Position numbers and translations under genes: made by a program. A stretch of 64,000 bases of DNA from Peribolospora baueri. Taxonomy: Eukaryota; Basidiomycota; Peribolosporomycetes; Peribolosporales; Peribolosporaceae. The notes beneath the pieces were generated by a model. The model was given only the letters and a program-made list of their open reading frames with translations. It was not told the DNA's origin and did no database searches. The stretch is from positions 97,640-161,639 of the forward strand of contig JAMDHS010000051.1 in assembly GCA_029717555.1 (NCBI GenBank), given 5' to 3'. Positions 3,932 through 59,800 of the stretch are shown piece after piece (the first letter of the stretch is position 1; each line of letters begins with the position of its first letter).

Positions 3932-6900
3932 TCAACAGCCGGCGAGACTGTTCTTGGGGATCGGATACTCGGTACTGTTCCAGATGGTCAGGTTCGGGTT
4001 GTTGTACGCGTCCCAGTGGCTGTGAAAGAGAAGCGAAAGAAAAAGGCGGGACGAGGTTGAGCAAAAAAAAAAAAAAAAGCCAGCTGCGACGGAGGACCCA
4101 CCGATGGATGTAATCCGCCGTGGGATAGTCCTTAGGGTCGCAGCCCACGTTATCCTCCTGCCCATCCTTCTGGTAGAAGCGCACGTAATCGACGTTCAAG
4201 TAGGCGGGAAAGACGAGCCTCTGAAACTGGGGAGTCTGGAAGGCGGGCGAGAGAGCGAGGTTGATGACCATGGCCTTCGCGTACGGAAGGGGGGAACGGG
4301 AGGAAGACAAAAAATGAAGCACCGTCAGTAAGAAAGTAGACGCCAACGTGTTTCTCGCCTCGGACTCACCATCGGCTCTTGGCTGACGAGCCTCTGCCCG
4401 ATACCGGTAGCCCCGTTCGGGCCAACGGCACCCGCTTTGGCGGTCCACGAGGGCTGCCCGTCGACGTACCACGTCACGTACCCGTTCTCCGGATTCTCCT
4501 TATTCGGGCTAAACTCGACGCCGAGCTTGATGTAAGCGGGCGTCTGAACGGTGGATTGGTTGTAGTACTGCGCGCCGTAGCGGGTGAGGACGGAGAGAGA
4601 CTCTTGGTTGATGCCGCCGTGGTAAGTGTTCTGTACGGTGATGGCAGGGTTGTACAACACCGCGCCGGCGCTCGAGTTGTCCCAGTTGTAGCCGGCGTCG
4701 ATGGGCGCGATCTGGAGGGACTGGCTGGCGGAGCCCTCGGTGACGCCGTCAGAGTACGTCTTGACTTGGGCTTCGATCAGATCAATCTCGGGCGCGCCCC
4801 TGCCCACGTTCACGTTCGGGCCCGGATGATCCTCGCCGGGGCAGGTACAAGCGGAGACGCGCTGACCGGGGAGCCAGGACAGCTCTCCACCGTAGTCTGT
4901 CGAGCCGCTCGTCTTGGCCGCCGGCGGACCGGTTTGGTTGACCCAGGTCTGGTTGGGCAGCGTGCCGACGTCGCACGTAGAGTAGCTGTACGGCCACATG
5001 CCGTCCGTCGTCGCGCCGTAGCCCGGCCGGCCGAGGTTGCCCATCATCCACACGGCGGGCCAGAAGCCCTGCATCGCGGCCGAGCCGGGGAACTGGACGA
5101 GGGCTGGCGGTCAAAAAAAAAAAGGAAGAAGAAGAAGAAGAAGAAGAAGAAGAAGAAGAAGAAGAAGAAGAAGAAGAAGAAGAAGAAGAAGAAGAAGGTC
5201 AGCCACGGGCGGGGGGGAGATGACGCTCTGAAAAGCTCACCTTCAAAATAACCACCGGTGAAGCAAAGCTTATTCCAGCTCTGCAGCATACCACTCTGGT
5301 AGTTAAGGTTATGCTGGGCAATTTCATCGATGGTGATCACGAGTTTGCCGCCGGCCGTCGTGATGGCCTCTGGTGTATACCATTCGTAATCTTGGGTTTG
5401 GTAGTAGTGCAAGTCGACGGCTTCCCAGTAAGGATCGTCTCCCGGGTAGAACGTCCGTCCGTCGAGGTTGAATTCGTCGGAGAAGACGAGGTGGTAAGGC
5501 GTGCCGTCCTGGGCGGTAAACTTCATGGCGTGTTTGGGCGTGTCGATGTCGACGAGCTGCGGCAAGTTGGCGATGTACGGCACCTGACCCGAGGCGTTGA
5601 TGCCGCCGAGGCCAAAGCCAAAACCGATCCAGCGATGCGTCTTGTACTCGTAAATGATGGGGTAGGCGGCGAAGAGGGCGATGATGCCGGCGACGAGGAT
5701 GCACAGCACGGCCATGTTCATGAACCCTCGACCGTCCATGGTTGCGAAAGCGCCCTTGCCCTTGCCCTTGGTGTCGGGGTTGTGCAGATGGTCGTCGTCC
5801 TCTTCCTCCTTGCCGTCCCAAATGAGGGCCGTGGTGGTGGGCGTCATGAAAAATTTGGTGTCCGATGGCGAGTCGCCCATGCTCGCCAAGCTGTACCCGC
5901 TCATCATGCTGAACCGGCTCGGCGCCCAGCTCGCCTCGCGGTTCATCGGACCCGGGGTGGCGCCGGCGCCCGTGGCGCCGATGGGTCGGAGGAACTCGAC
6001 ACCTTCGCCGCTCGCTCGAGCGCTGACCGATGCGCTACTACCTCCTCCTTCGGCAGCATTGCCATTGCCATTGCCATTGCCATTGCCATTGCCATTGCCA
6101 TTGCCATTGCCGTTGCCGTTGCCGTTGCCGATGGCAAGGTTGGACTGACTGAGTCTCAAGCTGCCGGCCGTGGCAGGGCCGCCGGCGGCGGCGTGGGGCG
6201 AGCCGGGCGGGGTGAAGAGGCCGGCGAGGGTGCCCTCGGACATGTGGGAGTAGGGGCCGTAGCCTGCGCCGATGGCGCCGGTCATGAGGTCCCTCATCGT
6301 GCTGCTGCGGCCGCCTTCGAGGGTGGGGTAGTAGTCGCTCATTCGGTGGTTCATTCCCTCGCCGAGGGAGGCTATGCCGAACAGGCTCTGGGTCCGGCCG
6401 TGGTGGTGGTGGCCGCCGCCGGAGGCCGAGGACAACCCGAGGGCGATGCCGGGTGCGCTGTGTCCGGACCCGCTGGCGCTGGCGCTGTGGCTGTGCGAGG
6501 GGGAGGACTCGTCGGAGGCGTCGGTGCGGCCGTACACGAGCAAGTCGCTCGTCGGTCTCTGATACTTGGGGTTCAGCGGAGAGGGGTTGACGGGGATGGA
6601 TTTGGAACGGTCGTTGGCGAAGGAGGAGGGGAGGAGGGCCGAGAACGGCCTGGGCTGCTTGGGAGGCAGCGAGGGTGGAGCGGCGCTCGACGAGGACGAG
6701 GACGACGAGGGCGCGGCGGAGGTGGGAGATGTTCTCTGAAGATGCGAGGAGGAGGAGGAGGATGGGGCGGCGGATTGAGAAACGGAGAGCGAGGACATGG
6801 ACGACGAGGCGAGCGGCGTAGGACTCTGGGACACTGCCGGCGACGGCTGGGTGGTGCGGGCGGCGGGGGGAGGTGAGAGCTGGTCCGGGGACGAGGGCTG

Positions 6901-7254
6901 TGGTGGGACGGGAGAGACGTCGACGGAGGGCGGCACGGGCAGCGGATTGCTGGACCTCCTGGAGGAGAAGAAGGAGGAAGAGGCGGGGGTCGGTCCCAAT
7001 GGAGGGGTGCTGATGACTGACGACGGCAGGGCGGGTAAAGGGTTGTTGAGCGACGTCCGCACGGACGGCGGCGGGGAGACGGCGGTAAAGCGATCAGCGA
7101 TGGGCAGAGGGGAATAGCGGGTGCCATCGGCGGTGTTGACGTCTGCGTCGGCGGTGGTGGGCGACTCTGGTGGAGAGGAGACGGGGAGGGAGATGTAGGC
7201 GGCGGCGGAGGAGTAGAGACGGGCCTCGTCTGCGGACGGACGGGGATCGGCCAT
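3932..7254 (-). CDS. KRE6: Beta-1,6-glucan synthesis-associated GH16 membrane protein (Kre6/Skn1 family)
   Basis: The protein is about 1002 residues from exons 5241..7254, 4370..5103, 4102..4274 and 3932..4019. The first 500 residues are Ser/Pro-rich, cytosolic and disordered, with an Asn-Gly repeat near residues 375-400. One membrane segment follows near 510-535 (AVLCILVAGIIALFAAYP), giving the type II topology of Kre6/Skn1. The lumenal part is a GH16-like domain with FSDEFN, the ExDxxE active-site motif (EIDLIE, near residue 776), DYVRFYQ, VGCDP and a C-terminal NPNLTIW...YPIPKN block, all typical of the family. Family members act in the secretory pathway and are needed for beta-1,6-glucan in the wall. 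The first intron (5104..5240) holds a long AAG/CTT microsatellite. The start is the first ATG of the long frame. Confidence 0.92.
5125..5197. repeat. (AAG)n microsatellite inside KRE6 intron 1
   Basis: About 24 AAG triplets on the plus strand, read as CTT on the gene strand, are followed by a run of T just before the 3' splice site at 5104. The tract therefore forms most of the intron's polypyrimidine tract. Confidence 0.95.
6055..6129. repeat. Hexanucleotide repeat encoding an Asn-Gly tract
   Basis: Tandem CATTGC units grading into CGTTGC lie inside exon 1 of the KRE6-like gene. On the gene strand they encode alternating Gly and Asn. The unit length is a multiple of three, so length changes would keep the frame. 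Confidence 0.95.
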
Positions 7255-15781: not shown

Positions 15782-18573
15782 TCAATGCGAGCAGTACTGC
15801 TGGAAGAAGTCCGTAGATGAGGATGGGTAAAACCAGAACGACACGGCGACAACCTTTTCAAATGAGGACGAAGGGAAGCGAAAGGTGGCGAAACGACGGT
15901 CAGCGACGCCTTCCGGCGTATACGAAATCTTCACCTGAAGCTGGACACGCACGATGTATATCATCTGACGAAGTCATAATAAGGATAGAGGCGAGAGGGA
16001 GGATGAAAGATGAGTGGCCAAGAGACAATGTCAGTCAGGTCGAAGCCGGCCGAAGCACCAATTCAAGTTTACTACGGAAAACACACCATCTGGAGGTTAA
16101 AAAAGACGACGGAAAAGAACACTCTGGTCAGCACGATGTGGTACAGTCAAAGGGGACGTGCTAACGAAACTCACCAGCTAATATTTCCAGGACACGCGTG
16201 GAGGCGAAACAAAGACGTAAAACGAATGTGAGCCAGGCAAGCTTGGCCTTGCCCGCAGAGCGTGCACCTCCACGCCGCGCAACTCACAATAAATCCTTCC
16301 ATCCAGTTTGCCCGCCCGTCTTGGATACAGTAGTTGACTGCGAGCACGGTGAAGAAGAGGATGATTGTGGAGTACGGATCGAACAGGAGCGAAAGTGGCT
16401 TTCCCGCAATCCATGCAATGACGACGAGAAGGGGCTGATCGGCAGAGATGCAGAGTGAATTCGTCAGCGCGTTTCCAAGGTCAGGGAGAGTTTGTGCGAC
16501 GGGATGAGTTGGCGAGGTACGTACAATGACGAAGAGGGCGATTTGCTGTCAAAGGCGGGGGAGAATATACTCGTCTGGTCAGGACGTTCAAAGCAACAAT
16601 GGATTTAGAGATCGTGCAGCCGCTCACAATAGAAGACCCAACAGCGACGCCCATCGAGAGATCAAGCTTGTCCTTCCAAGCGACTGTGACGGCAGTTACG
16701 TGTTCGGCCTGGAGCAGAGCGAATTTAAGCGAAGAAGCGAACCATCAGTGACGGAACACCGCGAAGTGGGATCTCAGAAGATTTGAACACGCACAGCATT
16801 GGACGCGATCGGCAAGAGGATGATGCCGGTCCAGTAGAGGTTGGCGCTCGTGTCCTGAGTGAAACCGTCGATGGCGTCAACGAGCCACTCGGCCGTCACG
16901 CCGACGAAGACGGTGACAACGACAAGGAGCATGATGGTGTAGGGGAAGTTGAGCTGAGGGGTCTCCTCTTCACCGCTCTCTTCGTCTTCGTAGAATTCGG
17001 TGTGCGTGTAGAGGGAGAAGCCGAGGTAGCCAAGGTAACTGTGGGAAATGGCACATGACAAGCTAAACGGGTCAGGGCTGGGCGACAAAGTGGCGAAGAC
17101 GGCCAACAGACTCCTCACATGAGAAGGAGGATGACCGCCGTGCCTCGGCTGAGTTTCAACAGGTCGACTCGTCTGCGAGAACGTTAAGAGGTCAGCGAAG
17201 AAGTTTGCTGATGAATGGGGAACAATTGTACTTACTCGGTAGGGTCCGGAATGTCATTCTGAAGGACGACAGCGGACAAATCGTTTAAGGAGTCAGAACT
17301 AGGAACCACCCTCAGAATGCATGATTACTCACACCGAGGGTGGCATGAAACGCGGCGGGGATAATGAGTGAGATGACGGCCATGGTCAGAAGCGACGAGT
17401 TCAGCTGAGCAGCGGTGACCTTGAACTCTTGTTCCTTGAATCGGACGCCACCGACGAAGAGGCACATGCCAAGGACGAGGAGGAGGTTGGAGAGGATGGA
17501 GCCCAGGAGGGAAGACTGCACGACGACTAGCTCGCAGTGGAAGAGAGCGATGATGGCGACGATGAGTTCCACGGCGTTGCCGAGAGACGCGTTGATAAGG
17601 CTGTTTGGAGGCCACCCTCGATCAGCATGGTGAGGTAGGCAAACGCAAGCCGATTAGAGTCAAGTGCCTCACCCCCCAAGCGTCTGACCGACCCGTATTG
17701 ACAATTCCTCCGTCGCAAAACCGAGCAGCTTGGCCAAAGGGATGATGGCCAAGAACGCGACTGCGAAGGCGAACCGAGTCCGGTCAATCATTTATCCGCC
17801 TGCAAAGCAGACGGCCGCCGGCGTGACCGAGCGGTAGACATGCGCTTACAGATGAACTCCGCCAAGGGTGAGACTTTGCTTGGGCTGAAGAAATGGCATG
17901 CCCAGGATACGGGGATGAACAGGAGCAGAACGTTAAGCCTGAGAAGTAGGGCACCATAGGCAAGGCCACGGTATACGAAGTGAGAACATCTCGCGTCAGC
18001 TCGTTCAACACAGCCCCAAATCAAGAAATGGTTGTAAGAAACGGCGGCTAACCAGGAGCATTTCACGGTGTTCACGAACGATCGCGTGTACGACGGTGCC
18101 TTGCCAATTTTCTTTTCCGGTCTGAGGAGAGTGGACATAGACCTACAGGTCGGGCATGAATGACGGGGCAGGGCATGAGGTCAACGCCAACGAGCGAGGG
18201 AGAGTGGGAGGTTGTGGAGTGCGACGAATTCTGCTCACCTCTTCAGCGCCGCGGAGTCAATCGTCACCCTCCTGGGAAGACCATGACCACCGAGCCCAGC
18301 GTCCGGGTCCGTGTCTGTTCTAAGCAATACCCCTGGCTCTTCAGCATCGGGCGGCGCAAAGTACTCGTCGATCCTGGCGCTCTTGCGACGGTTGATCGTG
18401 CCAGAAGGAGAGCGGGACGAGCTCGCACTGACGTTGCCATTGCCGTCGGCCCGGGAGAGAATATTGGTGGGCGGTTCCTCGCTGACCGCCGTGCTGCCGC
18501 CCCAGGCCGTGGTGGGCGATTCACGTTCAGGCGAGAAGCCGCCCTTTTCGACGTCGTCTACCTTCTGAGACAT
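15782..18573 (-). CDS. VCX1: Vacuolar Ca2+/H+ exchanger (CaCA family, Vcx1-like)
   Basis: Fifteen exons give 502 residues: 18239..18573, 18053..18121, 17850..17938, 17673..17760, 17333..17600, 17236..17258, 17119..17172, 16795..17038, 16628..16708, 16525..16545, 16288..16434, 16175..16177, 16087..16089, 15953..15964 and 15782..15853. The protein exchanges Ca2+ for H+ across the vacuolar membrane. After a ~110-residue polar N-terminus come about eleven membrane spans. They carry both alpha-repeat signatures, [13 protein letters not shown] and SNA-AEHVTAV, plus [22 protein letters not shown] and an acidic loop (EDEESGEEE) between the two halves. The C-terminal span reads [20 protein letters not shown] only if two 3-nt exons (Leu and Met) are included. 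The start was taken at [11 protein letters not shown]; the frame stays open for 193 codons upstream, but that text looks like 5' UTR. Confidence 0.88.
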
Positions 18574-40089: not shown

Positions 40090-42906
40090 TCACTGCGCGC
40101 GATCGTCGTCCGAAAGGTCCGCGCCCGAGCCTGCGTTCGTCTGCACTGGCAACCGTCCTTCTTCGGTTGGGTTTTGACCAGCACCAGCACCAGCACCAGC
40201 ACCAGCACCAGCGGGCACCTCGGCGTCACCAGCACCTTCTGAAGCGGAAGCGGCCACGGTCTGCCTACTCCTCTTGTGATGGAGGCCATGCGTTTGAGCA
40301 CGAATGGCGGCGATGTATCTCGAAAACCTGGCGCGATGCTGGGAAAAGGTCCCATGTCCGTGCCCACCGTGGCCGAGCCGCGCGCCTTCCCCGTCCGCCG
40401 AGTGGCCTAGTTGCCCCTCGTCCCCCCCCGTCTCCGCCAACCCTTCCGCACTGCCGCCACCGGCTTCGGCAAAAGTTCCCCCAACGGCGTAGGAAGAGTT
40501 GCCAAACTCGGAAAAGTCCTGTCTGCACAGCGGACAGACGGCGGAGACGTTGACGAGCCACTCATCGACGCAGGCCACGTGGAAGGCGTGCTTGCCCGCG
40601 CAGGGGAGGACGCGCACGTCGTCCCCGTCTGTGAACTCGCACACGCAGATCGGGCACGTTTCCGTCGAGTCGATCTCCGATGGGTCTTCGTAGGGCGAGG
40701 AGTGCGGATGGGGTTGCTGGGAGGAGGACGAGGAGGAGGACGAGGGTTCGGCGGGAGCAGACACAGCTGCGACGACGGCCAACTTTGCCTCCTCGCGCGT
40801 CGGAGGCGACCTAGAATCGGTCGAGAGCTTCGTCCGCTCCGCGTCGTACACCTCCTGCTCGACGCCCGGCGACGAGGAAGGCGTCCTTCGCTTCTTGTGC
40901 TTTTCCCCCAAACCCTCCTCGTCCACCACGCCAGTAGCAGCGGCACCGGCAGCCTCGTCCGCTGTTCCTGTGGCGCTCACGAAGCTCCCTCCTTCCCCGT
41001 CGCCGTCGCCATCACTGCTGCCGCTCCAGTTCAATGACGTCGCGGCGGCTACGAGCGTACGGGCGCTTGCTGGATTCATGTTCGCTGAGATGGTCGGCAT
41101 CGCAGAAGTGTTCACGTTTGCGACGCCGGCGACGGCCGCAGGAGAGGCCATCGAGTTCTTGTCGTGGTCTTGGTCGGCAATATAGGTCATAGCGAGGGCT
41201 TGGAGCTCGATGTCCTCTTTGCTTATATCAACGATGTCCTTAGCTCCGTCTCCCTCGCCCGTCTCCACATGCCGTCCTCCCACACCACCAGCATCGCTGG
41301 CGCTCTTGGTCGCATCGCCATCGCGCGCTACGACGCCTGCTCCCCATTCTTCGACACGTCCAGGCGGCGCATTTCGATGATACTTGACGACGGGGAACGT
41401 ATCGAGCACGGCACGGGCGATACCGCCCACGCGCGTCTGACCGGACACCATTTCCCCATCCGGACCAAAACCGCCGGCACCGGTCGCGGCGCGAGGGCCG
41501 TAGCGCTCCGGATGGCGGATGGCGCGCACGGCACCGGTGAGGATGACGACGAGGAACATGAGCGTCACGAAACCGGTGATGGCCTGCGCATGGCGAGAAA
41601 AAACAGATCGGAATGGATGGGGAGGCAAGGACGTCCAATTAGGTCAGTTCGGCATCCGTCTATCGTTCCATCGTCCCGCCCGATACGGCCCACAGCCGCG
41701 TCACGGCCTGCGACCGACGCGAGGCCAACTCCGACTCACATAGAGCACGATCATTGCTAGACCGGTCTGGATGCCGCCACTCGGGGAGCCGCTGGGGCTC
41801 GCGCTACCGGTGGTGGTGCCGTTGTTCTGCAGCGTGAAGGTGCTGTTCATGCCTACGAGCGCCGTGATGAGATAGCCTTCTGAAGTAGTGTTGCTCATTC
41901 CCGTTATGCCTGATGGTCCCATGCGCGCGGCCGCTTCCTGTGGGGTGCAAATGCACCACGTGAAGAACAAAGTCCGGGCGGGAGGTGTCAGGAGCAGGAT
42001 AATAGGACATGGGACGCCGAGACGATCTCACCGCAGACAAATTAGAACTCACGTCGAGAAACGTCGCCGAAGCATTGAGTCGGGATGAGTTGTATGTCTG
42101 GTCCAGCGTGTCGATACGATCGAACTGTTGGTTGACGTAGCTGTAGAGGACAGAAAGAACCGTCCCGCCGTGAGCCTCGATCCAAGCTCAGGTCAATGCC
42201 TATGGCTCCGAAGGGAAGACAGAAACTTTCAAACACTCACAGCGCCGTCTTCGGGTCGGTAAAGCTGTATACGTCCAACACTTTTTCGAACTCGGGCGTC
42301 CCATCGTCGTTCGTCCCGCTGACGTAGTCCTCATCCATGAGGCAGGCAGCGCTGTACTTAGAGTAGAGCAATGCCGCGGAGGCGCCCCGATCGCGGGCGA
42401 GGGTGAAGATGTCATTGTCCATGCTGGAGGCCGTGCTGTTGTCATCGCAATTGATGAAGGCCACCCACGGCGCGTTGGTCGGATCTGAGATGGAGGGCGG
42501 GCCGGTTGTGTTGGCTTCGGTGAAGTGCAGGAAGGCGCCTCGGGCGAAAAAGGTGCTGTTGGGCATGGCAAGCTGGCAAACGAGGGAAAGTGGAGAGGAT
42601 GCGCGAGAGGATGACGTGGGTTAGAGCAAAAGGCGACATTATTTTAGTCTGACGGACCGCATTCCGCTAGCACACACTAGCCAAATACAGTCCCAGCCTC
42701 CGTCCTTTACTCACCTGCAAATTGACTGAGTGCGTATAGTGTCCGGCAGGCGGCTGCGTCCAGCCGAGCGAGAACGACCCGCCGGAGGAAAGGCCGGTGG
42801 TGTCGTTGGTGGGCATGGCGGGGATGTATGCGTCGGCGCAGCGGGGCAAGAGGAGGAACGCGACCGCCGTCGCGAGGCATGGGAGCATCGTGTGACCGAA
42901 GGCCAT
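40090..42906 (-). CDS. Membrane-bound RING-H2 E3 ubiquitin ligase with a lumenal PA-like domain
   Basis: Exons 42715..42906, 42241..42572, 42053..42140, 41740..41937 and 40090..41583 give 767 residues. Residues 1 to about 26 (MLPCLATAVAFLLLPRCADA) are a signal peptide. The next ~240 residues form an N-glycosylation-rich lumenal region (NDT, NST, NTT, NSS, NAS) with WVAFINCDD and GASAALLYS, as in protease-associated domains. A single membrane span follows (ITGFVTLMFLVVILTGAV, about 272-290). The cytosolic tail is disordered apart from a RING-H2 near residues 585-630: CPICVCEF, VLPCAGKHAFHVAC, DEWL, CPLCRQDF. The C-terminus has a Gly-Ala repeat. Such PA-TM-RING proteins act in endosomal, Golgi or vacuolar membranes on membrane cargo; location and substrates are inferred. 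Confidence 0.88.
40172..40213. repeat. AGCACC hexanucleotide repeat encoding Gly-Ala
   Basis: Six or so tandem hexamers near the 3' end of the RING gene encode an alternating Gly-Ala tract close to the C-terminus. Confidence 0.9.
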
Positions 42907-55078: not shown

Positions 55079-56816
55079 ATTGGGTCCGCATCTCTGTTTC
55101 TCTCTGCGTCCCCCCTTGGGGTTGATTAGGGTTAGGGTCAGGATGCATTCGCCGGGCGTTCAGAAGACCTCGCAGGCTGACAACTAACCGTCGCAGTCAC
55201 ATTGTCGACCGGAGCTCGAGTCCATTTGCGTGCAATTCATTATATATGTCAGGAACCCTTTCCCGGATCAAAGGCCGGCAAACACGCGTGAGAATTGGGT
55301 TTCCGAAGTTTCGTGTCTGAGATCCTTTCGATTTCAGGTTTGAGATGGGTGCTGGTGTCAGATCGGCTCCTGGCTCCCGGCTCCCGGCGCCCGGCGACTG
55401 GCGACCGGCAACGGGCATTTTTTTCGTGCGTTGCGCCACTCGCGGTCCACTCGACGGGGGTCGTGATGAGAACGGTAGTTCAGGCGTTCGAACAGGCGTC
55501 CGAGGACCTCTTTCATTTCGCTGCCCACCACATACAAGAAGGAGCCATCAAGGATCTGGCTTCCGCCAATTCTTCAACTTCCCTTGCAAAGCTTGTTCAA
55601 CTATAGGCCTCCCCTTCGCGTTTGTCTTTTCACCAGAGACATGAATCCATCCAGCTGACTACGCATACCGCCATCTTGAAGCGCAGAGGAGAGAACCGAT
55701 GACGGCTGGATACTTGGGATGTTCATCTCCCAGACATTTCCTTTAAGCTGCCAGGGTTGGTGGTCCCATCCACCGAAAGCGAGGCGCGGGCTCACTGGAT
55801 ATAGTAGCGGAGAGGGCGTGGAGGACGCACTTTCCCAGAAGTGTTCGTTGTATGCGGGCCCGAGGTCGTCGATGGTGTCATCGATGGGCATCGCCTCGGT
55901 CCCCAAACGTGTGATCATCAAGATGGCGAGAGAAGATGCACGCCGTGCACCGGACCAGATGGCAAACCACGAGACCCGGTGGCAGACCTCCTCCCTCGCC
56001 TCGCGCCTCGAATCGGTGTGAAAGAGGTGGCCTTCCTCGTTGCTCCTGTGCGCCAAGCCGGCCCACGTCACCAGATTGGCCATCGCGTCACGCTGCTCCT
56101 CCTTCTTCCACTTCGGTTCATCTCTGCCAACGTCTCCCCCACCTTGGGCGTTCTTCCCCGGTCTACCTCCATCATTAAGCTGTCGCCATGACCCTCACCA
56201 TTGCATCACAAAGTCGCCTAATCTCCGTACCGTTCGGCACCAAAATCGCCCTCTCGTTCCCATTATTGACATCGGGCTCGGCCTGCAACGACCAAGACCC
56301 GTCGACTTCCTCGCCAAGGATATGGCGAGTCGGACTGTTCTTGGCTTAGGCCTGTTGCCCGCTGCTGCCGCGAGGTGGTGGCAAAAGAAGCTAGAGAGAT
56401 CTCAGATTCAATTTCTCTCGTGAGCTTGTCCGAGTCTAAGATCCGGTAAAACGATGAGAGCCGCTGAAGCACGCAGGTAGAGGAAAGTTGTGCAATAAAG
56501 TTAGACATTAGAATAGGTAGTAGATGTTCCTGCTCAAGGCAGTGCGCCCCTTTGTTTGTGCTACGTGCCCAAAGAGAACTTGCTCTGATCACCGCAGTGT
56601 AGCTTGAGAACCGGGTAGTGCGTGAGTCTCCAGGCACACATGTCAAGCGCAGTCAACAACGCACTCGCTCTCAGACGAGGCGGAGAAGATTGCGTTCTTG
56701 CTCGAGGTGTCTTCACAAGACGACCGCCCCGACCGTCGATCGATTCCGGCCGTTCCTGTGGTCGGCCATCGCTCGCTGTTGCCGCAGTCGAGTGGGCCCA
56801 GGCTGATCGGTTGAAT
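55079..56816. other. Sparse region between the MFS and HFI1 genes
   Basis: This 1.7 kb has no gene I recognise with confidence. It contains one coding-like minus-strand frame (listed separately) and a two-copy TTAGGG at about 55126-55137. Confidence 0.5.
55601..56083 (-). CDS. Hypothetical protein or gene remnant, 160 aa
   Basis: The ATG-initiated frame has a balanced, Trp-containing composition unlike the Arg/Ser/Pro shadows elsewhere: SWFAIWSGARRASSL, PIDDTIDDLGPAYNEHFWE, FGGWDHQPWQLKGNVWEM. The stretch RREAREEVCHRVSWFAIWSG...PIDDTIDD faintly recalls the middle homology region of fungal Zn-cluster transcription factors, but that is weak and unconfirmed. I saw no Zn-cluster or upstream exon. 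It may be a small gene, the end of a larger spliced one, or a decayed copy. Confidence 0.3.
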   Translation of the reverse strand: MANLVTWAGLAHRSNEEGHLFHTDSRREAREEVCHRVSWFAIWSGARRASSLAILMITRLGTEAMPIDDTIDDLGPAYNEHFWESASSTPSPLLYPVSPRLAFGGWDHQPWQLKGNVWEMNIPSIQPSSVLSSALQDGGMRSQLDGFMSLVKRQTRRGGL

Positions 56817-59800
56817 ATGGCCGAGTGGGACGTTCCACCAAGGATCGAAGAAGGTCGTCAAGCCAGTCCTCGCTGTCTCTTCCACCTCCCTCTCTCCATT
56901 TCCCATCCGCGAAGCTTCGACGGCAGGCAGCCCATCGCCCCCGCGGTAGCGCACCCGCGGATGTCGCTCGCATCCCCCTCTATGCCCATTGGGCACCTGC
57001 CCCTTGCCTCTGCGCCCGGCACTGGCGGCCCACTCACCTTGGCCGGCTCGTCCGGCGGCCATACATTCCCATCCCCCTTCAAGGCCGCTGTCCTCAACTC
57101 ACACGTCCATCCATTCGGCTCGGCATCCGGTTCCAGCTCCAGAACGTCTCACGAGGTCATCACAGGCCACAATCCTGAACCGGACTTCATGTCCGACCCC
57201 TTGGACCTCAAGGAGCGCTTGGCCGAGGCGCTCGGCGAGAATGGCATGACCTACTGGACAGCTCTCGTCGCCTTCATGACCGGAAGGACGAGCAGAGATG
57301 AGTTTGAAGAGCAGGCCAGAAGCTGCCTTGAGAGGCCGGGGGATGGTGAGTTGCGGATGCCTGGGCGCCCACCTTTGTCTCGCCCATCGTACGAACCTTT
57401 TGCTGGCTGGGGCCGACCATGTATGGATGGTGCGCCGGGCTATATGACCGAGCGGAAGAGCAAGCTTACCCTTCTAGAGGTTCCGTCGATGCTCATCTAT
57501 CTCTGTCTTCCCGTCTAATTTCAACTTCAACCCGATCGGCGGTTTTCATCCAGTGCATCTGCACAACCGCTTCATCATGGCAATTCTCTTCAACGCATCC
57601 GTACCCCTCTCCCCTTCTTCCGGCGCCGGTCCGTCCAAGCGTAGGCAAATGGACGGGAGACTCAAGTCCGGATCGGCATTGGATGTCGAGGATAGGCGAA
57701 GGCTTAAGCTCAAGGCTGCCATCGCTGGCCTCGGGAAGAAGGAGCGCAAGAGGCTCAAGCTAGCTGGCACATGGCTCGATGATCTCCAAACTGCAAGCGG
57801 CAAGAAGAACAGCACCTCCAAAGGAAAGAAGGCCGTTGCCCTGGCAAAGGCCGCCGCTCTCGCAACCAACGGCGGTGATGCAGCATCCAAGGACAGGGAC
57901 GGTGAGGACGCGGACAAGCAAGCGGAGAAGGACGGGGAGACCCTAGCCGTGGAGGATCAGGAGGAGGTTTTGAGGAAAAGAGCTCGTGAAGAAAAGGAGG
58001 AGAGGGAGCGCAAGAGGAGAAAACAGGAGGAGGCCATCACTGCCATCGGGGCGCCGTCCCGATCGGACGGCGTCCTCGGCATAAATGATGTCAAAGGCAA
58101 AGTACCTGCTGGTGAATAATCCCGCCTACCCGTCTCTTTCTCCATCGATTATTGCACACTAACTCTTTCTTTCTCTGACCCGATCGTCTTCTCGCATTCC
58201 AGTCTCCCCACAAGAACTTACTCGACTACTGTCAGCGCCCCTTTGCGTGGACTCGAAGCAGCTGCCTGCTCTGGATACCTTGCGTGATCGGATGACACTC
58301 ATTTGCTACGAGAACGGCCTGACCGGAGGCGTCGCCTCCAAAACCGTTGAGATGATGTCCTTGGCTCTCGAGGTAAGGTTTCCAGCTCGACCCTCGCCAA
58401 GCCGCGTGTGATAGGCGATCTGCGTTGCTACAACTGGCAGCTTAATGTTCTCCTAATTTCTTCCTCTCCTTTTGACTTTTTCAGATGCATATCCAACATC
58501 TCTCCTCCTCGACCATCGCCAAAGTGCGCGCGAACCGTGCGACAGGTGTCAAGACGTCTTCCGGGCCTACTCTGCACCCCGCTTCGTCGAGCGGTCTCCC
58601 CTCGTCATCCAGGAGCATCGACGGCCCTTTTTCTACGGTGTCCAACTCGAGTGTCGATGTGAATGGCGGCACCATTGGACTGTTCGGCATCGGCAACGGC
58701 CCGTTCCACACATCGCCCACGCAGACCCAGCTCTCTCTTTCCTCCTCGCAACCGTCCACACAGCTTTCCTCATCGTCGCCTCCGAAAGGAAAGACGCGCG
58801 CTACGGACTCGGACGCGGTCATGACCGACCTCACCCGTCCCACTACGGCCTCCTACTCGCCCGGGGCCACCCTGGGGTCGCTCTCGTCCACCCACAATGC
58901 CAAAGCCGGCGGGCTGGGCTTCATGCCGCGGTCCGGTTCGGGTAGTGGCAAGAACGAACCGGAGCCAATGACGACGTTGACGCTGCCCGATTTCGAGTTT
59001 ATGCTGGGCCTGGCGCCCCACTCGCTCGTCGAACCTTTGGGTCTCGGCCCGCAAGAGCGCCTCTTGTCAGCTTTCGAAGAGCGGGCGGAGGTCGGGGTGG
59101 ACGAAGGAGGAGACGGCGAGGAAGGAGAGGTGGAGGACGTTAAAGGGCTGAGGAGATGGCTCGCGGAGCGGGAACGGTTACCCAGCCTTGAGGAACTCTT
59201 CTTGTCAGATCCCTCGCTCCGCACCGCTGGAGTCGCAAAGGAAGGCCCAGCGCAGAACGGCGTTGTTTCTCCCGCTCTGTCATCGTCTGCGAATCCTCTC
59301 GCCTCGAGGACTCCGACGACTGCGACGACGATGGCGGCAGGAACGACGGGAGCGGACGGTGACGCGCCCACGGCGGCTGCGCCCGCTTCTGCGAATCTTG
59401 CAGACGTACCGATGACCTCTCCGAGAAATCGGTTCATCGTCGACATGACTTTCCCTTTGCGCGTGCTAGATCGTCGAATCTTCGCCGAGGAGATGGCTAG
59501 GCGAGCTGCGGAGCGAGAGGAGGAAAAGAGAAAGGAAAGGGAGGAGAAGGAGATGAGGGGAAGAAGGTGGGCAAGTCCGAGGCGGATGGATGGAGGAAGG
59601 GGGATGGACCTTGGTTTCGGAAGAGGGTTGGGCATGGGGAGGGAGAGAAGGATGACGCTCCTCGGCGAGCAGAGAAAGGACGCTTTGCATCGTTTTCATC
59701 AGCACCCACAGCAGCAGCAACAACAGGATCGGAGCCCGTCGTCTTCTCTACAGGAATCGATGCGGGGGCAAAGCGGCAGCGGCAAGAAGAACGTCGAGCC

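Follow-up and report, generated by a model that had tools for sequence, protein, structure and literature searches.

The window analysed here, a stretch of 64,000 nucleotides of the Peribolospora baueri genome (22.1 Mb in 178 contigs), carries a predicted Ca2+/H+ exchanger gene of the CAX/Vcx1 family. Its coding span occupies 15782..18573 on the minus strand in a model of 15 exons and 509 amino acids. The window also holds a KRE6/SKN1 beta-glucan synthesis gene (4325-7254, minus), a RING-finger ORF (40090-41628, minus) and a SAGA-Tad1-like ORF (56622-57518, plus), and scanning the window for Rfam families and tRNAs gave zero matches. The exchanger protein matches yeast Vcx1 (4k1c) with 314.6 bits by phmmer, plant CAX1 (9vsa) with 232 bits and Bacillus YfkE (4kjr) with 189.4 bits. 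It scores 352.1 bits against TIGR00378 (cax), well above the curated cut-off of 211.15 that defines the family, and 143.9 against Pfam Na_Ca_ex, with a cut-off of 24.9. The segments SLGNAVEL and ASNAAEHV align with GNAVEL and GNAAEHV of Vcx1, with Ser in place of Gly in the second; we take GNAVE and (G)NAAEH to be the acidic motifs of the two alpha-repeats of CAX/Vcx1-type exchangers. The gene product is a predicted Ca2+/H+ exchanger of this type.

All 14 introns of the model have GT-AG borders. On the minus strand, exon 1 (18239..18573, 335 nt, start codon picked by reading) is followed by exon 2 (18053..18142, 90 nt), exon 3 (17850..17938, 89 nt), exon 4 (17673..17760, 88 nt), exon 5 (17333..17600, 268 nt), which contains the GNAVE motif, exon 6 (17236..17258, 23 nt), exon 7 (17119..17172, 54 nt), exon 8 (16795..17038, 244 nt), exon 9 (16628..16708, 81 nt), the start of which falls within the NAAEH motif, exon 10 (16525..16545, 21 nt) and exon 11 (16288..16434, 147 nt), which ends in WMEGFI. 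The four exons that complete the gene are of 3, 3, 12 and 72 nt, and all joints around exons 11 to 15 are in phase 0.

The 3' end of exon 11 reads TGG-ATG-GAA-GGA-TTT-ATT and is followed by the donor GTGAGT, which scores 10.9 bits. An intron of 110 nt (16178..16287) then leads to exon 12, the single codon CTG (Leu) at 16175..16177, with TATTAG before it and GTGAGT after it; this intron has a branch-point-like CTCAC, with its A at 16229, and is AG-free from there to the 3' splice site. The next intron, of 85 nt (16090..16174), has CTGAC with its A at 16128, and the only two AGs between CTGAC and the 3' splice site are both within 5 nt of CTGAC. Exon 13 is the single codon ATG (Met) at 16089-16087 (16087..16089), placed between CTCCAG and GTGTGT. 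It is separated by 122 nt (15965..16086; CTGAC, with A at 16035 and at 16031, and AG-free from these to the 3' splice site) from the 12-nt exon 14 (15953..15964), which has the acceptor flank CGTCAG and reads ATGATATACATC, or MIYI. The last intron (15854..15952, 99 nt; CTGAC with A at 15900) ends in the unusual acceptor GAAAAG, after which exon 15 starts at 15853 and runs to 15782 (72 nt with the stop codon). All four introns have CTGAC or CTCAC and are AG-free from about 10 nt downstream to the 3' splice site, and a similar but somewhat wider branch-point rule is passed by 44 of 66 reference introns from this genome. The initial annotation had proposed two consecutive single-codon exons at this position, and direct reading and the gene model bear out their coordinates, flanks and phases letter for letter; the joined protein also reads across both codons as claimed. 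Retention of the intron between exons 11 and 12 results in an in-frame TGA, and read-through past the CTG donor in an in-frame TAA, so both were rejected as candidates.

The case for the two codons comes in large part from the protein. The annotation held that the spacing of the family needs two residues more than exons 11 and 14 supply, and this stands: Tyr is found at position 7 after the x-Gly in Vcx1, plant CAX1 and YfkE and in the two paralogues of the same genome that were compared, on contigs C11 and C109 (the Na_Ca_ex genes on C131 and C178 lie outside the comparison). The same position is found in 79 of 80 prokaryotic loci, which are not 80 independent cases, since they are the best 80 of at least 589 relatives from an alignment-based scan of bacterial contigs and are mostly from Bacillus relatives. 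The exception, L113, departs after EGLTLLAG, with the match stopping at residue 308, and is probably a frameshift. Outside the genome itself, the relatives from the contig scans were prokaryotic only; when the fungal exchanger protein alone served as query, bacterial and viral contigs gave zero relatives, as did the viral contigs when queried with the exchanger alignment. The C11 paralogue (L005, about 3000-1150, minus) is a second CAX exchanger with introns of its own. It has a single phase-1 intron right after MEGM, close to the site of the microexon cluster without coinciding with it, and it keeps the identical Tyr spacing but has VQQED after the last helix rather than a YP end.

When the predicted C-terminus is aligned with its Vcx1 homologues, as the annotation had suggested, inclusion of both residues makes the last span gap-free against Vcx1, CAX1 and YfkE. 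Without them, a gap of two residues opens against both Vcx1 and CAX1, YfkE drops from the matches at E up to 1, and the scores fall from 352.1 to 345.3 bits for TIGR00378 (-6.8) and from 351.8 to 343.2 bits for TIGR00846 (-8.6). The simplest rival is that the microexons are unused and that exon 11 (...GGATTTATT) is joined to ATGATATACATC over one 323-nt intron, leaving 14 rather than 16 residues between Glu-Gly and Tyr-Pro. Such an mRNA would preserve the frame, its product still aligns significantly (33.9 bits with Vcx1), and only two introns would suffice here, the first of them with good sites. It would also move the Tyr from position 7 to 5, against 79 of the 80 prokaryotic loci, two paralogues and three solved relatives, and we regard it as very unlikely.

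Intron lengths and splice sites bear on the same choice. The reference set of 66 introns comprises 10 from the exchanger gene and 56 from other genes (actin, two other actin-family genes, six Hsp70-family genes and the C11 exchanger), located with a custom spliced aligner; the exchanger and actin genes of this genome match those of yeast well. G is found at +5 in 66 of 66 donors, the lowest of which scores 3.8 bits, and of the acceptors 63 end in YAG and 3 in AAG; this uniformity is flattering, because the set was hand-filtered (31 of 87 aligner introns removed) and because the aligner prefers sites that resemble the ones in the first 10 introns. Of the 66 introns, 65 measure 140 nt or less; the median is 96.5 nt. 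One reference intron, the third of the actin-related gene L028 (C168), which is presumably Arp2-like, is of 264 nt, and the other introns of that gene are short. That intron shows that a long intron does exist in this genome, as skipping both codons would require, but 323 nt exceeds all 66 reference introns. Among all GTs in the 323-nt stretch, the three best donors are exactly the predicted ones, at 16175 (11.0 bits), 16288 (10.9 bits) and 16087 (5.1 bits), with the next at 1.6 bits; if both codons were skipped, the strongest donor of the stretch would sit unused inside an intron. The acceptors of exons 13 and 14 rank as the top two of the stretch, and that of exon 12 fifth of twelve. When sites, lengths, intron prior and protein fit are summed, with a length model and densities of our own choosing and with any penalty for tiny exons excluded, the two microexons are favored over the single 323-nt intron by +8 to +12 bits, that is, -8 to -12 bits for the latter.

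Two of the predicted sites flanking the single codons are weak. The exon-13 donor GTGTGT is equalled or undercut by 2 of the 66 reference donors, with T at +4 in none of them, and the exon-12 acceptor TATTAG is equalled or undercut by 4 of the 66 reference acceptors. Further downstream, the exon-15 acceptor GAAAAG scores under all 66, although the homology demands this joint and, on inspection of the sequence, no alternative AG near 15854 would preserve it. The exchanger gene is not alone in having very small exons. The actin gene of the same genome (L026, C100, about 39.9-41.1 kb, minus) has, when yeast actin is used as the template for spliced alignment, a first coding exon of 7 nt followed by an internal exon of 14 nt, and its last exon has 6 coding nt.

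Alternative splice paths were enumerated as GT-AG chains with up to five introns of at least 45 nt that leave 16 residues between Glu-Gly and Tyr-Pro. There are 44 paths of the correct length, 38 of them free of stops and four with Tyr at position 7. Each of these requires four introns. Three of them combine the MIYI exon with two inner exons of 3 nt, and the remaining one is pieced together from slivers of 4, 5 and 5 nt. The predicted path, FILMMIYI, is the sole one of the four with G at +5 throughout its donors. Summed over its splice sites it scores 45.9 bits, 14 bits ahead of the runner-up at 31.7. Relaxing the rules gives 19 Tyr-at-7 paths with introns of at least 30 nt, 14 with GC donors at the 45-nt minimum and 80 with both, and the predicted path tops every relaxed set by the same scores. 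The three-intron paths in these sets score below 0, and GC donors add two further paths with G at +5 throughout, the better at 22.2 bits. The sequence, the frame, the best path among those enumerated, the species-like sites and the protein register are matters of observation.

How readily such a path might arise by chance was gauged with 4000 dinucleotide shuffles of the 323-nt stretch, in which the first 6 and last 12 bases were kept fixed. Under loose GT-AG rules, 2419 of the 4000 (60%) offer a stop-free two-codon filler, and therefore the letters alone prove little. Filler with G at +5 and YAG is found in 327 of the 4000, and adding introns all of 45-130 nt leaves 7, a limit of 130 nt that was set with the real maximum of 122 already known. 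Among overlapping real 323-nt segments of the window, filler with sites of the observed strength (thresholds placed at the observed minima) is found in 157 of 6207 with introns of at least 45 nt and in 1 of 6207 with introns of 45-140 nt; sites of at least 0 bits with introns of 45-140 nt give 16 of 6207. The window has no excess of signatures in which an acceptor and a donor are 3 nt apart, with 12 at spacing 3 and 4-15 at spacings of 1-30.

The spliced aligner was also applied to the stretch, with Vcx1 or YfkE as template and with splice models built on the gene's ten other introns. With Vcx1 it returns both 3-nt exons unprompted at intron costs of 10-26 half-bits, and with YfkE at the tried costs of 10, 14 and 18. 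None of 600 shuffles scores as high as the real stretch. At costs of 10, 14 and 18, the aligner puts inner exons into 503, 374 and 240 of 600 shuffles, fills of exactly 6 nt into 182, 155 and 112, and such fills with all introns of 130 nt or less into 10, 7 and 4; given these insertions, recovery by the aligner alone is not diagnostic. The aligner also produced tiny exons of 3, 4, 6 and 9 nt at the poorly constrained ends of Hsp70 genes. At a cost of 28 half-bits the ATG is lost, and at 30 both codons. That the ATG goes first, together with its weak donor, could be taken to favor a single real codon, CTG or ATG alone, with 15 residues, and the corresponding paths FIMMIYI and FILMIYI exist with G5 donors. 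Either would place the Tyr at position 6, which is found in 0 of 5 named homologues and 0 of 79 loci scored, and would need one intron of 198 or 210 nt, longer than 65 of the 66 reference introns. We consider a lone codon extremely improbable.

Other origins for the cluster were also considered. The idea that these introns arose from introner-like repeats was set aside, given that a genome-wide search, which passes over simple repeats and very common words, matched the 323-nt stretch nowhere else. Tandem duplication of an exon with its intron has no good support, since three of four intron pairs are matched by 70 to 104 of 300 shuffles. In the 3' parts of the introns between exons 11 and 12 and between exons 12 and 13 (window 16090-16287), a pyrimidine-rich block is shared, CGTCTTTGTTTCGCCTCCA in the one and CGTCTTTTTTAACCTCCA in the other. 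The score of this block is reached by 1 of 300 shuffles, with four pairs tested, and the resemblance is possibly due to chance.

Taken together, the evidence makes it likely that CTG and ATG are constitutive 3-nt exons, spliced in tandem into the exchanger mRNA, where they encode the third and fourth residues that follow Glu-Gly in the last membrane span. Both would be ultra-small microexons (15 nt or less): their GT-AG introns of 110, 85 and 122 nt fall inside the reference range of 63-264 nt, their sites fit the species when set against the 66 reference introns, with two weak but still in range, and the exons are needed for the conserved protein register. The frame alone does not need them, because 3-nt exons preserve it. 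A recursive splicing site is an acceptor AG that directly abuts a donor GT, such that zero exon bases remain. Neither codon is a site of this kind, as three bases separate acceptor and donor in both cases, and the two may still act in a manner like stepwise recursive splicing.

We infer that the RNA is actually spliced along the two-microexon path, constitutively and stepwise. The three introns around the single codons are each of ordinary length for the genome, and each has a serviceable donor together with a candidate branch point. Because introns here are short, pairing of sites across the intron is expected, and each would most likely be recognised alone, by intron definition, and removed sequentially. 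U1 and U2/U2AF would be unable to share a 3-nt exon simultaneously, and hence one intron would have to be out before assembly on the next. Since the exon bases double as positions -3 to -1 of the donor that follows, this donor should be intact in any order of removal; it would be complete both before and after the upstream intron leaves, and any particular ordering is conjectural.

The frame is preserved whether a given codon is included or skipped, and skipping could therefore yield shorter isoforms. One reading is that both codons are real and serve as optional cassettes, with four in-frame combinations and a mixture of 14-, 15- and 16-residue isoforms. It is consistent with the phase 0 of exons 12-14 and their lengths in multiples of three, with the two weak sites and with the over-representation of 3-nt multiples described for Drosophila microexons (PMC8042270). 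The strict spacing in homologues points instead to the full-length form as functional, and optional cassettes seem quite unlikely. A related proposal is a chain of two single-codon exons and a 12-nt exon, spliced in strictly ordered steps, with each 3-nt exon serving solely as the -3 to -1 bases of the donor after it. As all links keep the frame, the weakness of the ATG donor would make inclusion tunable, and the last helix could be shortened by one or two residues. This is a speculative and rather doubtful reading.

If the two exons are spliced as predicted, they are of interest in several respects. Limits on exon size probe how the spliceosome handles crowded splice sites, and a tandem pair of 3-nt exons, for which exon definition would hardly be feasible and ordered removal would be needed, would provide a natural minigene for stepwise intron definition. 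Ordinary gene-finding software is expected to miss both exons, and the annotation of a membrane transporter would then be wrong by a few residues. The combination of conserved protein spacing with a splice model for the species can flag exons that are too small for gene callers and read mappers.

The initial annotation described single-codon exons as close to the physical lower limit of splicing, but 3 nt is not that limit, given that 1-nt exons have been reported in Arabidopsis APC11 and Fusarium CYP621A. The CYP621A exon is reported with 20 orthologues and 18 SRA reads (PMC12940212). As with the exchanger, it is a fungal ultra-small exon recognised from conserved protein spacing and an intron that is too long, and it lies inside a conserved motif and is absent from most gene models. 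It differs in being one 1-nt exon rather than a tandem 3-nt pair, and in having read and orthologue support where the exchanger is argued from sequence (PMC12940212). The APC11 exon is constitutive, as is proposed for the exchanger pair, and stepwise, or recursive, removal was proposed for it: exon definition was thought very unlikely for 1 nt, and the flanking introns may leave sequentially through intron definition and recursive splicing (PMC4674806). Unlike the exchanger pair, it is a single exon and from a plant (PMC4674806). A 1-nt exon is also described for plant VPS55 (PMC8831610, PMC4674806), and work on Prp40/PRPF40A indicates that microexons also occur under intron definition (PMC11463390).

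Runs of small exons have been described as well, and a tandem pair of 3-nt exons is not among the matches listed from the open-access literature, which is no proof of its absence. Human RPS24 has consecutive exons of 3, 18 and 22 bp, and so a 3-nt exon within a run of microexons, but it is spliced alternatively under regulation by PTBP1 and just one exon of the run is of 3 nt (PMC12686416). In rice, adjacent microexons of 5 and 12 nt were confirmed by RT-PCR; as in the exchanger, two microexons adjoin, one is of 12 nt and the smaller was unannotated, whereas the smaller is of 5 nt rather than 3 + 3 and the host is a plant (PMC8831610). Mouse Ncam also has a 3-nt exon, but in an animal (PMC8042270). 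Single 3-nt and 1-nt exons are thus already known, the latter also in fungi, and what appears to be new, with good support, is the predicted pairing of two 3-nt exons in tandem.
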